Assembly (NCBI GenBank): GCA_001773775.1
Contig: MEXR01000052.1
Span: 1-37,901, forward strand
DNA: 37,901 bases
Direction: 5' to 3'
Source: Candidatus Amesbacteria bacterium RIFOXYB1_FULL_44_23
GTDB taxonomy: Bacteria; Patescibacteriota; Microgenomatia; CAZETR01; Amesbacteraceae
The position numbers and the translations under genes are program-made. Position 1 is the first letter of the stretch; the number at the start of each line of letters is the position of its first letter. The notes under the pieces are model-generated. The model searched no databases, was not told where the DNA came from, and saw only the letters and a list, made by a program, of their open reading frames with translations. Shown piece by piece: positions 74-34,106 of this stretch.

Positions 74-1545
74 GCAGAAGAATCGAAATACTGGCGATTG
101 TGTTGGTTTTAATCCTGGCCGCTTTCTCGCGTCTGTACAGAATCGGGGACTATATGACATTTTTAGGTGACGAAGGTCGGGATGCCATTGTTGTTAGAGA
201 CATTGTGTTGGGTCGCCATTTTCCCTTAATAGGTCCGGGTACTTCCGTTGGCAGCATGTACCTGGGGCCTCTTTACTACTACCTGATTGCCCCGTCGCTA
301 TTTATATCTGACCTCTCACCTGTTGGCCCGTCAGTATTTGTAGCCATCCTGGGCATAGCTACCGTTGCCATGATTTTGTACATCTCCAAAGACTGGTTTG
401 GCTTTATTCCGGCTATAGCTATTTCCACCCTTTACGCAATTTCTCCGGTAGTAATCATCTACTCCCGTTCGTCATGGAATCCCAACGTCATGCCCTTTTT
501 TGCACTGTTAACCATGTTTTCCGTATACAAAATCTGGCAGTCCCAAAACTGGCGCTGGTTAATCGTCACCGCAGTATCACTTGCATTCGTTCTCAATTCC
601 CATTATCTGGGTTTGTTGTTACTTCCGCCCGTTTTCTTTTTTATTCTTATCTCCAAAAATCTCCTCCCGTCTAAACGACTGATTATTAAATCATTGGCGA
701 TTTTCTGCTTTCTGATGTCTCCACTGCTGTTTTTCGATATCCGTCATTCCTGGACCAACTTCACCGCCCTGAAAACATTTTTTACCAATCGCGAAACGAC
801 AGTCAATCTCAAAGCCTATAAGGCCATTCCCAATATTTGGCCGATTTGGCAGGATGTAAATACTTCTCTTCTTGCCGGAGGTCAAAAACAGTTAGGTCAG
901 ATTGTGTCCGTTGCCTTACTGTCATTTTCGCTGGTTTTATTAATTAAACAACTGGCAACCAAAACCATTGACCCAAAATTTGTTTTCATTCTGGTTTGGT
1001 TACTGTCCGGCCTGGTGGGACTCGGACTTTATAAACAACACATTTATGCACATTACTTCGGATTCATTTTTCCCGCCCCTTTCTTTTTACTGGGGTATTT
1101 CTTTTCCGCAGCCAGGAAAAGCAATTTTGTATTAAAGATTTTGTTGGCAGTCCTATTTTTGACTATCTTGGCAGCGATGATTCAAAGCCATCCCTTAAGA
1201 TCATCACCCAATCGCCAACTTTTTCTTACTCAAAGAGTCTCTCGCTATATAACCGAACAAAGCGGAGGTCAGCCGTTTAATTTGGCCCTGCTGGCCAAAA
1301 GTAACTACGACGCCGGATATCGCTACTTTTTCTATCTCGAAAACAGTCCCTACTTTACTATTCATCAAAAAATTACGGACCAGCTATTCGTAATTTGCGA
1401 ACTTGAATCAAGAGCAGCCTGTGAACCTATCAACAATCCGTTGTGGGAGATAGCCTCCTTTGGTTGGGCCAAAATTGACGTTGAATGGGAGCTTGCCGGT
1501 GGCGTACGCATTTTCCGCTTAGTTCATAACCCAACCGGATCATGA
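55..1545 (+). CDS. GT39-like (ArnT/PMT superfamily) membrane glycosyltransferase
   Basis: A 496-residue polytopic membrane protein. The N-terminus has one long hydrophobic helix (about 10-25), then an external loop with D39-E40-G-R-D, the position of the catalytic Asp/Glu of GT-C fold enzymes. It continues with a GPGTS...LGPLYYYLIAP segment that recurs in the paralogues downstream. About ten further hydrophobic segments follow. The last ~100 residues form a less hydrophobic tail with an YRYFFYLE motif also seen in the gene at 3025. By family, it should move a sugar from a polyprenyl-phosphate donor to a surface acceptor on the outer membrane face. Donor and acceptor cannot be read from sequence. 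Its ATG has no Shine-Dalgarno and probably overlaps the end of the preceding gene. The stop overlaps the next start as ATGA. Confidence 0.85.
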   Translation: MVPFAVGRRIEILAIVLVLILAAFSRLYRIGDYMTFLGDEGRDAIVVRDIVLGRHFPLIGPGTSVGSMYLGPLYYYLIAPSLFISDLSPVGPSVFVAILGIATVAMILYISKDWFGFIPAIAISTLYAISPVVIIYSRSSWNPNVMPFFALLTMFSVYKIWQSQNWRWLIVTAVSLAFVLNSHYLGLLLLPPVFFFILISKNLLPSKRLIIKSLAIFCFLMSPLLFFDIRHSWTNFTALKTFFTNRETTVNLKAYKAIPNIWPIWQDVNTSLLAGGQKQLGQIVSVALLSFSLVLLIKQLATKTIDPKFVFILVWLLSGLVGLGLYKQHIYAHYFGFIFPAPFFLLGYFFSAARKSNFVLKILLAVLFLTILAAMIQSHPLRSSPNRQLFLTQRVSRYITEQSGGQPFNLALLAKSNYDAGYRYFFYLENSPYFTIHQKITDQLFVICELESRAACEPINNPLWEIASFGWAKIDVEWELAGGVRIFRLVHNPTGS

Positions 1546-3020
1546 AGCTCATAAATCGGATCATTTCACATCGGTTTTTTGTTCCTGTATTGCTCCTGGC
1601 AGCTTTGTTTCTGCGCGTTTACCGATTAGGAGCCTTGACCGGTTTTTACTTTGATCAGGGTCGGGACGCCAAAATTATTTGGGATCTCTGGCACTCGGGT
1701 AAATTCTTTTTGATCGGACCGACTACCGGGATTGAGGGCATATTTTTGGGACCGTTCTATTATTATCTGATCGCCCCTTTCTATTTGATTGGAAACGGTA
1801 ATCCGGTAATAGTCTCAATTACTTTGGCGGTTATAAACGTTCTGGGCATTTACGTTATTTACAAAATAGGCAAAGAGTTTTTCAGCCAGTCAGCCGGTCT
1901 TTTGGCCTCAACATTCGTCGCGTTTTCACTTCCCCTGGTACAGGCTCATCGTTGGCTTTCAAATCCCACTCCACTGCCTCTATTCTCCGCCACCAGTGTC
2001 TGGATGCTTCTTAAAATTATCACCGGCTCAACAAGTCCCCTGGTTTGGTCGGTTTTAGGTCTGTGCCTGGGATTAGGTCTTCAGCTTGAAGCCGCCTCAG
2101 CCGTATTTTTCCTTCCGGCTACTTTATTAGTCTTTTTGATATTCCGAAAAAATATTAATTGGAGTCTTAACCTGCTGCATCTGATTTTCACTTTTTCACT
2201 GACTCTGATTCCCCAGCTGTGGTTCAATTTTCGCCACGACAACATTCTGTTTGCTGCCTTTGCCAGGTTTTTATTGGCCGAGAAAAGTTTTACCCCGGTT
2301 CTTAGTGACTTCTATCGTCAGCGTTTATTTTTTTACTTTGACACTTTTTCTCAGAAATTCTTTTTAGACCGCAATCTGGCCATTCCGTTTGGCGTCATTT
2401 TGTTAGTGGCCTTTTTGCTGACTTTCAGGAAATTTAAAAAAGTTTTTTGGGGCCTCACCATTATCTGGGTTACCCCGTTAGTCTTTTTGTTGTTTTATCA
2501 CGGCAACTACGGCTTTGTTTGGGATTATTACTTCACCGGAATCTATTCCATATTCGCTTTATTTGCCGCCGTAGTTTTGACTGCTGCCGCCGGGCAAAAT
2601 AAATTATTCAGAAATGTAGTCGGGGCAGTTGTGGTGGTATTTCTGGTCACCAATGTATTTCATTTGCGAAACTATCTGTCAGCCGGAACCGATGGGCCGA
2701 CTACTGTAGTGTTAGAACCGTCACTAGCAGCAGTCGATGCGGTTTACTCGGATGCCGGCGATAAACCTTTCAACGTTGACGTTTACGTCCCTCCGGTCAT
2801 ACCTCATGCCTATGACTACCTGTTTTTATGGCGTGGGCACACCAAATATCAAAAGCAACCCAATTCTGACCTGCAACCGCTGTTGTATTTAGTTTACGAG
2901 GTTGATCCACCACATCCGGAAAGACTTGAAGCCTGGCTCACCCGGCAAAACACTTACGCCAGGATGATCAGTCAATTCAGGTTTGGCGGTTTGACGGTGG
3001 AAAAACGCCTGCGTTTCTAA
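1542..3020 (+). CDS. GT39-like membrane glycosyltransferase (DQGRD variant)
   Basis: A 492-residue multi-pass membrane protein, paralogous to the gene before it. The first extracytoplasmic loop has D38-Q39-G-R-D instead of DEGRD, followed by IGPTTG...LGPFYYYLIAP. The Asp expected to be catalytic is kept but the neighbouring Glu is Gln. It then has about ten hydrophobic helices and a soluble C-terminal region of roughly 100 residues. It starts in an ATGA overlap with the previous stop, so translation is probably coupled. Likely role: polyprenyl-phosphate-sugar-dependent glycosyl transfer at the outer face of the membrane. The Glu-to-Gln change recurs in the genes at 24098 and 29303, so it looks like a subfamily trait rather than damage. 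Confidence 0.85.
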   Translation: MKLINRIISHRFFVPVLLLAALFLRVYRLGALTGFYFDQGRDAKIIWDLWHSGKFFLIGPTTGIEGIFLGPFYYYLIAPFYLIGNGNPVIVSITLAVINVLGIYVIYKIGKEFFSQSAGLLASTFVAFSLPLVQAHRWLSNPTPLPLFSATSVWMLLKIITGSTSPLVWSVLGLCLGLGLQLEAASAVFFLPATLLVFLIFRKNINWSLNLLHLIFTFSLTLIPQLWFNFRHDNILFAAFARFLLAEKSFTPVLSDFYRQRLFFYFDTFSQKFFLDRNLAIPFGVILLVAFLLTFRKFKKVFWGLTIIWVTPLVFLLFYHGNYGFVWDYYFTGIYSIFALFAAVVLTAAAGQNKLFRNVVGAVVVVFLVTNVFHLRNYLSAGTDGPTTVVLEPSLAAVDAVYSDAGDKPFNVDVYVPPVIPHAYDYLFLWRGHTKYQKQPNSDLQPLLYLVYEVDPPHPERLEAWLTRQNTYARMISQFRFGGLTVEKRLRF

Positions 3021-32190: not shown

Positions 32191-33024
32191 GTGTATCACT
32201 TGCCGGAGGCTCTTATGTATTGGCTGCGTAAGAGGCTCCTTTCTCAGAACTTCCTCACAAATCGGCAGTTAATCAAAAAACTGATCCGAGGCTCTTCTAT
32301 CGGCAAGAATGACTTAGTTTTAGAAATAGGCGCAGGTAGTGGCGTTATTACCAATGAGTTATTACAAGTCGCCGGCCAAGTGGTAGCCATAGAGTTGGAT
32401 CCCAAATTGTACGCTAAATTACGCTCCCGATTTGTCACAAATCCCAGGCTACAGCTAGTCCAGTCTGATTTTCTTGGCTGTCCGCTTCCCCGAAAGCCTT
32501 ACAAGGTTTTTTCCAATATTCCCTTCAGTATTACGGCAGATGTTATTCGTAAACTGCTTGTGCCATTAAATCCACCCCTGGATTGTTATTTGGTAATGCA
32601 GTCTCAGGCAGCTGAAAAATTTACCATCAACTCCACGGCAAATTCAATGGCTGCTGTTTTATACTACCCCTGGTGGAAATTCGAAGTGGTTCACAAGTTT
32701 AGCCCTCTTGATTTTTACCCCCGCCCTTCCGTTGATTCAGTCCTGTTGCATATTTGCCCCAGACCGACTCCATTAGTATCAGAAAACCCGAGCTTGTACC
32801 GGGATTTTGTTGTTCATTCATTCACCACCGATAAGAAAGCCAAATTCCTACCCGTCAACCAGTGGTTGTATCAGTTTAACCATCTTTCGCCAAAGAAAAT
32901 TAAGCTTGTTCAGAGTTCATTTGCCAAGTATTTAAAGTCACAGCAATTATTGTCTAAGATTCACCGGACTCGTACCGACAGCAATTGGCGCCAGTTCAAA
33001 AAGTCCTCCTTGACCTTCCAGTAA
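32191..33024 (+). CDS. Erm/KsgA family rRNA adenine N6-methyltransferase (Erm-like)
   Basis: A 277-residue enzyme from GTG 32191. SQNFL at 18-22, motif I LEIGAGSG at 44-51, E68 in AIELD, D93 in QSDF and the catalytic N109-I-P-F112 give the complete set of an rRNA adenine dimethylase. NIPF rather than NLPY, followed by SITADVIRKLL, points to Erm-type 23S rRNA A2058 methyltransferases rather than KsgA (16S), as does the basic C-terminus. Erm enzymes block macrolide-lincosamide-streptogramin binding; here that activity is inferred. GTG 32191 fits the promoter geometry, but ATG 32215 follows GGAGG by five bases and would give 269 residues; both are in frame. The last codons carry the promoter/operator of the merR gene. 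Confidence 0.75.
   Translation: MYHLPEALMYWLRKRLLSQNFLTNRQLIKKLIRGSSIGKNDLVLEIGAGSGVITNELLQVAGQVVAIELDPKLYAKLRSRFVTNPRLQLVQSDFLGCPLPRKPYKVFSNIPFSITADVIRKLLVPLNPPLDCYLVMQSQAAEKFTINSTANSMAAVLYYPWWKFEVVHKFSPLDFYPRPSVDSVLLHICPRPTPLVSENPSLYRDFVVHSFTTDKKAKFLPVNQWLYQFNHLSPKKIKLVQSSFAKYLKSQQLLSKIHRTRTDSNWRQFKKSSLTFQ
32205..32209 (+). promoter_or_regulatory. Possible Shine-Dalgarno for an alternative Erm start
   Basis: GGAGG is five bases before the in-frame ATG at 32215. Strong Shine-Dalgarno sites are rare in this window, so this may mark the real start of the Erm-like protein or a second initiation point. Confidence 0.45.
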
Positions 33025-33040
33025 CTGGAAGGTATATATT
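33010..33040 (+). promoter_or_regulatory. MerR-type promoter with CueR-like operator
   Basis: The -35 is TTGACC (33010-33015) and the -10 is TATATT (33035-33040), with a 19-base spacer that is longer than normal, as MerR-family promoters require. Between and overlapping them is a perfect inverted repeat, ACCTTCCAGT and ACTGGAAGGT around one central A (33013-33033). Its outer ACCTTCC/GGAAGGT half-sites equal those of CueR-type copper-responsive operators. The -35 and left arm are the last codons of the Erm-like gene. The merR ATG is seven bases beyond the -10, so this promoter would give a leaderless, autoregulated merR transcript. Confidence 0.85.
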
Positions 33041-33047
33041 CAGGTCT

Positions 33048-33512
33048 ATGGATAACCACACGATTGGCCAGACGGCAAAAATAACTGGGCTCTCACCCAA
33101 GACCATCCGTTTTTATGAGGAGTCCGGGGTAATTACTCCGGCCACGCGTGGTGAAAATGGATACCGCGCTTATACCCAAAAATCCATAGAGGAACTCAAG
33201 GTACTTAAATATGCCAGGGACTTGGGACTTCCGTTATCCGAGATTAAAAAGCTGATGCGTGGCTGTGAAGATGGCAATTGCGCCCATTCCCGGAACTATA
33301 TTCTGGACTCAATTACCAATTATTTGAAAATATTAGACGACCGCCTGGGCCAGATGCAGCTCCTAAGAAGTAAACTAAATGATTTACAACAAAAAATGAC
33401 CTCTGGCGATTCCAGCTGTAATAATGGGGGCTTCTGCTGTGACATCCTGCACCAGTTAGTTGACGTTCCAGTGTCCAAAAAAGGAGGTGATACAAATGAA
33501 GGATCCGACTAG
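33048..33512 (+). CDS. MerR family metal-responsive transcriptional regulator
   Basis: A 154-residue protein. The N-terminal winged helix reads TIGQTAKITGLSPKTIRFYE (5-24), then GYRAYTQKSIEEL (38-50) and LGLPLSEIKKLM (59-70), all standard for MerR. A coiled-coil dimerisation helix covers about 85-117. Cysteines are C73, C78, C124, C130 and C131, plus H80 and H135. C73/C78 lie where MerR/ZntR/PbrR relatives keep a metal ligand (C78-C82), and C124-C131 fall in the C-terminal metal loop. A thiophilic or transition metal is therefore the likely ligand. The operator looks CueR-type but the extra Cys set resembles ZntR/PbrR, so the metal is open. The ATG at 33048 is preferred over earlier in-frame starts because of the promoter. 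No efflux pump is adjacent. Confidence 0.88.
   Translation: MDNHTIGQTAKITGLSPKTIRFYEESGVITPATRGENGYRAYTQKSIEELKVLKYARDLGLPLSEIKKLMRGCEDGNCAHSRNYILDSITNYLKILDDRLGQMQLLRSKLNDLQQKMTSGDSSCNNGGFCCDILHQLVDVPVSKKGGDTNEGSD
33481..33491 (+). promoter_or_regulatory. Near-perfect extended Shine-Dalgarno
   Basis: AAGGAGGTGAT, eleven bases complementary to the usual 16S rRNA 3' end, lies inside the last codons of merR. GGAGG is eight bases from the ATG at 33496. It is the strongest such site noticed in the window, where most genes lack one. Confidence 0.7.
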
Positions 33513-33534
33513 TTGTCCCGGAGGTTGCTGCTAA
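33496..33534 (+). CDS. 12-residue Cys-rich small ORF (possible metal-binding peptide or frameshifted MerR tail)
   Basis: The frame reads MKDPTSCPGGCC and stops at TAA 33532-33534. Three of the last six residues are cysteine (S-C-P-G-G-C-C), suited to binding a soft metal. It overlaps the 3' end of merR by 17 bases in the +1 frame and follows an ideal Shine-Dalgarno at ideal spacing, which argues for real translation. Alternatively, the run of six A at 33477-33482 could hide an indel or promote a +1 shift. In that case the MerR tail would read ...VSKKEVIQMKDPTSCPGGCC instead of ending ...GGDTNEGSD. I recognise no family. The TAA overlaps the convergent kinase stop by a few bases. Confidence 0.45.
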   Translation: MKDPTSCPGGCC

Positions 33535-34106
33535 ACCTTAGCCTTGGTGTCATGTGCGCGCCATGACATCAGAGCTTGGTCAATTTTCTTATAAAGATCT
33601 TCTTGGCTTCCGTCATTGATTAGAATCATGTCCGCCATCTTCACACACGCAGACAAATTAGTTTTCGTTGGGTCTGGATCGTTCATTTCCCGGGCTTCGT
33701 CAGCCAAAAATTTTTCGAAACTAACTTCATCCTTTGTAGATTTTCTCTCTAATATTCTTGCAAATCTGATCTCCGCTGGGGCGTCAACCGCGATTAATAT
33801 AAAATTACTTTGCTTTTTCAGGTACTCAACCTCACCCACGTTTCTTATGCTTTCGATAACGCAATCATGTCCGGTATTTATTGCCTGAGCATATAGCTGT
33901 CTGATCAGGTAATCATTGCCGAAAAGAGCTCTCATCTGATTGGCTTTTTCCAACATGGTGTCCCTGTTTACTACTTTCTTGTCCGCAATAATTAAGTCAG
34001 TTAGATATCCGGAAACGGATAAGTGGATAAAAGATTTATCATGAAGATACTCGGCAACTGTTCCTTTTCCAGCTCCCAGAGTTCCGGTAATTCCTAAAAC
34101 TATCAT
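33531..34106 (-). CDS. P-loop nucleotide/dephospho-CoA-kinase-like protein
   Basis: A 191-residue soluble protein. The Walker A is G8-T-L-G-A-G-K14-G-T16, with GKGT as in adenylate-kinase-type NMP kinases. A LSVSGYLTDLI segment near 29-39, VIESIRNVGEVEYLK near 83-97 and DAPAEIRFARILERKS near 108-123 (lid-like Arg-rich region) fit a kinase that phosphorylates a small nucleotide or cofactor. Relatives are often annotated as dephospho-CoA kinase-like or AAA-family ATPases; I cannot fix the substrate. It is a single gene with its own promoter, and its stop overlaps that of the small Cys-rich ORF tail to tail. It looks unrelated to the metal/Erm module. Confidence 0.75.
   Translation of the reverse strand: MIVLGITGTLGAGKGTVAEYLHDKSFIHLSVSGYLTDLIIADKKVVNRDTMLEKANQMRALFGNDYLIRQLYAQAINTGHDCVIESIRNVGEVEYLKKQSNFILIAVDAPAEIRFARILERKSTKDEVSFEKFLADEAREMNDPDPTKTNLSACVKMADMILINDGSQEDLYKKIDQALMSWRAHDTKAKV

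Follow-up and report, generated by a model that had tools for sequence, protein, structure and literature searches.

Small metalloregulators that control a Cys-rich metal-binding protein are known from cyanobacteria, where a metallothionein is paired with an ArsR-family repressor (SmtB-SmtA, and also BxmR; PMC12193353). A tiny, unannotated Cys-rich ORF of Mycobacterium tuberculosis, MymT, proved to encode a metal-binding metallothionein (4.9 kDa, Cu(I); PMC7558416), and the CadR regulon of Pseudomonas aeruginosa includes Zrd, a small protein with zinc sites that has been compared to metallothioneins (PMC12301328). The locus described here, from Candidatus Amesbacteria bacterium RIFOXYB1_FULL_44_23, lies in a window of 37,901 nucleotides (the whole stretch of DNA that was analysed). 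It resembles SmtB-SmtA in pairing a small metalloregulator with a Cys-rich product, and MymT in that the product is a tiny Cys-rich ORF overlooked by annotation. In contrast to SmtB-SmtA, with its ArsR-type repressor and much larger metallothionein, it combines a regulator of the MerR activator type, overlapping genes and, across relatives, peptides of 7-18 aa. The regulator is of the same type as CueR, ZntR and CadR, with a long-spacer promoter recognised from its layout only; Zrd, unlike the window peptide, is a separate two-zinc-ribbon protein encoded between two converging genes. The gene for MymT is not known to lie at a merR end. Mycobacterial polycysteine leaderless ORFs, which also contain tandem Cys codons, are said to be cysteine attenuators located upstream of the genes that they control, whereas the window ORF ends its operon. 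A full-text literature search of partial coverage returned no report of MerR-coupled metallothionein-like peptides. The kind of system, a regulator-controlled metallothionein, is known; what stands out here is the size of the peptide, its coupling to merR and its recurrence.

The merR gene and its overlapping Cys-rich ORF

The features of the locus, in window coordinates, are:

33010-33040, plus strand: MerR-type promoter/operator (TTGACC at 33010-33015, a 19-bp spacer, TATATT at 33035-33040)
33048-33512, plus strand: merR, encoding a 154-aa MerR-family regulator (Pfam matches, alignments)
33481-33491, plus strand: Shine-Dalgarno (SD) sequence AAGGAGGTGAT of the peptide ORF, within the coding end of merR
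33496-33534, plus strand: peptide ORF MKDPTSCPGGCC, 12 codons and TAA (33532-33534), in the +1 frame relative to merR
33531-34106, minus strand: AAA_18/nucleotide-kinase-like gene, convergent, sharing 4 nt with the peptide ORF
33548-33568, plus strand: hairpin TGTCATG-(TGCGCGC)-CATGACA with a self-complementary loop, located within the 3′-terminal part of the convergent kinase gene

The window MerR has the N-terminal HTH and MerR DNA-binding domain expected of the family, with Pfam matches to MerR_1 (PF13411, 1.7e-19), PF00376 (2e-14) and MerR-DNA-bind (PF09278, 3.9e-6). Its best NCBIfam match, CueR, scored 84.8 bits, under the cut-off of 147.4, and the equivalog cut-offs for ZntR, CadR and MerR were likewise missed. 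Because the protein misses every equivalog cut-off, the inducing metal cannot be named. In alignments Cys78 is retained in 11 of 11 MerR relatives and Cys130/131 in nearly all. We dropped an attempt to read the valence of the metal from the position of CueR Ser77 or ZntR Cys79, as Cys78 lies about four residues upstream of that site; this approximate offset comes from an ungapped dimer-helix comparison with the CueR and ZntR sequences.

The dyad CCTTCC-N7-GGAAGG (33014-33032) lies in the promoter spacer, and 7 nt separate the -10 element from the merR ATG. All six CPR merR promoters (those of the window and of the five relatives described below) have TTGACN, a 19-bp spacer with a TTCNAG...TGGAA dyad, a -10 element and a start codon 6-7 nt further on, and thus in sequence layout, though only in that, they meet the definition of a MerR-type promoter (a 19-20 bp spacer and a dyad). 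From this geometry, which is of the MerR-activated type, we infer that the mRNA starts at the merR start codon and that merR is probably leaderless. A single copy of the dyad is present in the window's genome (1.1 Mb, 62 contigs), even with one mismatch allowed, and on this evidence the merR-peptide operon appears to be the sole, or main, target of the regulator in that genome. In other CPR genomes the TTGACNTTCC...GGAAG form of the dyad had no matches outside the merR promoters of G185 and G757; the dyads of G134, G321 and G210 are variants that do not fit this pattern and were not covered by the search.

The peptide ORF overlaps the 3′ end of merR. Its ATG follows the end of the GGAGG (33487) by 8 nt, and an A6 run occupies 33477-33482. 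The first-pass annotation had placed the A6 run, the SD sequence with its 8-nt spacing, the ATG, the peptide and the TAA correctly, as a re-reading of the window confirmed. It had also described SD sequences as rare among the genes of the window, and indeed, when the sequence ahead of every possible start within the first 40 codons was considered, a 5-nt SD-like match turned up for just 1 of the 35 mechanically called genes. AAGGAGGT and GGAGGTGA each occur only once in the window on both strands. This near-absence of SD sequences suggests that initiation in this genome is mainly leaderless or SD-free.

A separate gene or a tail on MerR

SD-led, tiny, Cys-rich ORFs that are out of frame with merR are found at the merR end in six CPR loci, namely the window and five relatives. 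Relatives that carry a name are Patescibacteria, Parcubacteria and Collierbacteria, which marks the source of the window as a CPR bacterium. The five relatives carrying the predicted peptide come from different families of the class:

L016: peptide MNGGCCGGGSCC, +2 to merR, ATGA overlap, weaker SD sequence GGGGGTGG
L017: peptide MRSPPCC, +1 to merR, 7 codons
L018: peptide MKNCTCCGDECKCGDCKC, +2 to merR, weaker SD sequence AGGTG
L025 (found by a profile scan of GTDB genomes): peptide MKMSPCC or MSPCC, +1 to merR
L027: peptide MRIPPCC, +2 to merR, 7 codons, ORF beginning 2 nt past the merR stop

The five relatives' peptides span 7-18 aa. Five of the six CPR peptides end in Cys-Cys (that of L018 in CKC), their Cys content is about 25-40%, and CC, CDC and CGC motifs occur across the CPR and Chloroflexota peptides; the non-Cys residues are variable, which leaves little sign of sequence constraint on the peptide as such. 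MerR relatives of about 50-55% identity are scarce: there were six matches, including the divergent L019 type, in 372 genomes of the class, and such relatives were present in 1 of 83 genomes in the order of G134, while neither a single-protein search of genome contigs nor a profile search of viral contigs yielded any. Only six CPR cases were found, in about 2% of the genomes sampled in the class. The MerR of L027 is more divergent (35% to the window MerR) and lacks the C-terminal Cys pair (YCC metal loop).

On these comparative grounds we are highly confident that the peptide ORF is a real, separately translated gene, its translation being inferred from sequence. The first-pass annotation had left two options, a thiol-rich peptide made at merR under MerR control or a +1 shift at the A6 run that adds a Cys-rich tail to MerR, and had suggested that relatives be compared. 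In that comparison the peptide ORF, the SD sequence and the Cys-rich end are kept, whereas the tail of merR and the relative frame vary. The SD-led equivalents in the five CPR relatives support the first option, with peptide synthesis and metal binding remaining inferences. A programmed frameshift, or a sequencing indel, that gives MerR a Cys-rich tail ending ...KKEVIQMKDPTSCPGGCC can appeal to the presence of the A6 run and to the existence of Chloroflexota MerRs with in-frame Cys-rich tails. However, the peptide frame is +1 to merR in three of the CPR loci and +2 in the other three, with ordinary merR stops; the junction sequences differ and share no common slippery site; the ORF of L027 begins past the merR stop; and each peptide ORF has its own ATG and SD sequence. 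Because the peptide frames differ among relatives, we regard the frameshift or indel as very unlikely.

Searches for similar ORFs elsewhere bear on the role of chance. In 280 kb of strand-bases from the CPR loci, five Cys-rich short ORFs (ATG start, 5-25 codons, at least two Cys, 25% Cys) lie away from merR ends and none of the five has an SD sequence; every SD-led one sits at a merR end. The pattern GGAGG-N3-9-ATG-N6-36-TGYTGYTAR has four matches in six whole genomes, all at merR ends, and a reversed-pattern control in the same six genomes has zero. A scan of 99 MerR loci gave convincing tiny Cys ORFs with an SD sequence in the CPR clade and L040 alone. That a chance ORF happens to lie behind an SD-like stretch, as its shortness might allow, is hardly credible for a pattern that different families of the class share and that is confined to merR ends.

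Cys-rich tails in frame with MerR, which the first-pass annotation would have taken as the mark of a tail, are absent from the CPR relatives, where the peptide is out of frame, but do occur in distant Chloroflexota, with an internal SD sequence and ATG kept. The MerR of L040 (Dehalococcoidia) has an in-frame tail ...VTMMKPGDCSCPDCCPAGGCDCDC, with GGGAGGTGACC ahead of an ATG pair, and fused tails with a retained internal SD sequence and ATG are also present in L138, L144, L147 and L149, as well as in L132 with GTG. Because these tails keep the internal start, the two options that had been set against each other appear as two states of one theme. Other Chloroflexota loci have separate SD-led peptides (L117, 24 aa; L118, 39; L123, 36; L124, 62; L127, 28; L129, 26; L130, 25), which are larger than the CPR peptides and rich in Cys-X-Cys, and many further Chloroflexota MerRs have neither a separate peptide nor a fused tail. 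A MerR-type promoter is present in all five Chloroflexota promoters examined. We note that in L138, L144, L147, L149 and L040 one merR gene may yield two products by way of the internal SD sequence and ATG (e.g. GAGGAGGTGATG).

In a tree of the MerR proteins the CPR cases cluster. At least three changes on branches with good support are required for the separate label, and likewise for the fused one, in a count that omits L018 and several Chloroflexota rows. The pairing of MerR and peptide is therefore either old, with losses, or of repeated origin. Across the set the peptides have the look of metallothioneins (small, Cys-rich, with Cys-X-Cys or Cys-Cys motifs). Five Chloroflexota peptides compared with Pfam and NCBIfam, metallothionein models included, had no match at E 1, and those of the CPR loci fall below the length that such a scan can handle.

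Neighbouring genes and the downstream hairpin

No co-directional gene directly follows the window peptide, and four of the six CPR loci (window, L016, L017 and L025) have a convergent gene next. The merR-peptide operon is isolated: in the hosts checked neither a pump nor a reductase gene adjoins it, and no consistent metal gene lies beside it from which the metal could be identified. L040 (2596-5831) is the only locus where the neighbours offer a hint, namely of arsenic for that member: its MerR-tail gene lies between a low-molecular-weight phosphatase/ArsC-like gene, an aquaporin and an MFS transporter. L019 (G143; 136-2031, minus strand), a long-branch neighbour of the CPR clade, has a MerR-type promoter and a MerR gene followed by an ATGA-coupled gene for a membrane-anchored thioredoxin (NWCPEC), which occupies the position of the peptide, and by a gene for a DsbD_TM/CcdA-like protein; this arrangement suits a thiol or metal theme. 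A group I intron (RF00028, 95 bits; L025 3181-3407, minus strand) lies close to the merR operon in the SURF_62 genome.

In each of the six CPR loci the peptide ORF precedes a hairpin with a 7-9 nt loop that contains a palindrome of at least 6 bases (GCGCGC, TCGCGA twice, CGCGCG, TCGCGCGA and GCTAGC). Of 714 other hairpins in these loci, 34 (5%) have such a palindromic loop; the pattern was spotted post hoc, and the hairpin of L018 was judged by eye. Those of L025 and L016 are terminator-like, with T residues after the stem, and the window hairpin has no T-run. No Rfam family matches the hairpin. We rejected the idea of a common terminator type, as TGATCGCGACA is found once in G134 and once in G757, each time behind the peptide; it is also found once in the window's genome, at an unrelated place. 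The self-complementary loops may pair two transcripts or form a protein site.

A proposed metal response and its rivals

We propose that merR and the peptide ORF form one autoregulated operon that would constitute the whole response to a thiophilic metal. MerR would act on its own 19-bp-spacer promoter, and binding of the metal at the conserved cysteines would turn the promoter on. The mRNA would start at or beside the merR start codon, so that merR would be translated leaderless, and the near-perfect SD sequence of the peptide would be expected to give it a larger output than MerR. The peptide, as a minimal thiol ligand resembling a metallothionein, would then bind the metal that induced it, protect the cell and reset the sensor. 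That the peptide acts as a metal-binding effector is, we think, quite likely, in the absence of expression, peptide or metal-binding data; the complete scheme of a leaderless sensor and a highly translated mini-metallothionein, in which translation, transcription start, metal binding and role are all inferred, we consider fairly likely. Several observations weigh against this scheme. Two-Cys peptides of seven residues could each bind little metal, and to our knowledge no metallothionein is that small; L019, with a related CPR MerR, has a thioredoxin and a DsbD_TM protein instead of the peptide; and there are only six CPR cases, with variable non-Cys residues and, in L027, a MerR without the C-terminal Cys pair.

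The same small size could mean that the peptide acts on MerR itself, by donating thiols in trans or by delivering or stripping metal as a feedback ligand, as the 7-mers seem too small for bulk buffering. Tight coupling to merR would fit such a role, as would the fused forms, in which the Cys-rich segment is carried on MerR, and the case of L027, in which MRIPPCC offers a Cys-Cys that the regulator's missing YCC metal loop does not. Five of the six CPR MerRs nevertheless have their own C-terminal Cys pair, the peptides have no conserved binding residues besides Cys, and the Chloroflexota peptides of 24-62 aa resemble sequestering metallothioneins. We consider this explanation possible but unlikely.

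Far less plausible is a cysteine-sensing leader peptide, in which ribosome pausing at the tandem Cys codons would control the hairpin by attenuation. Although the Cys codons immediately precede the hairpin in each of the six CPR loci, the operon ends with the peptide, and an attenuator needs a co-directional controlled gene after the peptide and hairpin, which the window, L016, L017 and L025 do not have; it is because the next gene is convergent in these four of six loci that we think attenuation unlikely.

Returning to the metal-binding effector, we put forward only tentatively, and at somewhat less than even confidence, the broader idea of a self-contained response that has one of the smallest conserved genes as its effector, that has arisen or been re-arranged repeatedly, and in which fusion in Chloroflexota yields both a tailed MerR and a free peptide. 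Automatic annotation drops ORFs this short, so that such genes would go unnoticed in the genomes of CPR bacteria and Chloroflexota. With its separate and its fused forms the family offers a ready-made series in which the linkage of sensor and buffer can be studied, and a leaderless sensor with an SD-led effector would be a simple route to much peptide and little regulator per mRNA. Should these peptides prove to be produced and to bind metal, they would lower the size limit for conserved effectors that respond to metal, and would illustrate how an ultra-small genome can cope with metal stress when its operon includes no dedicated pump.
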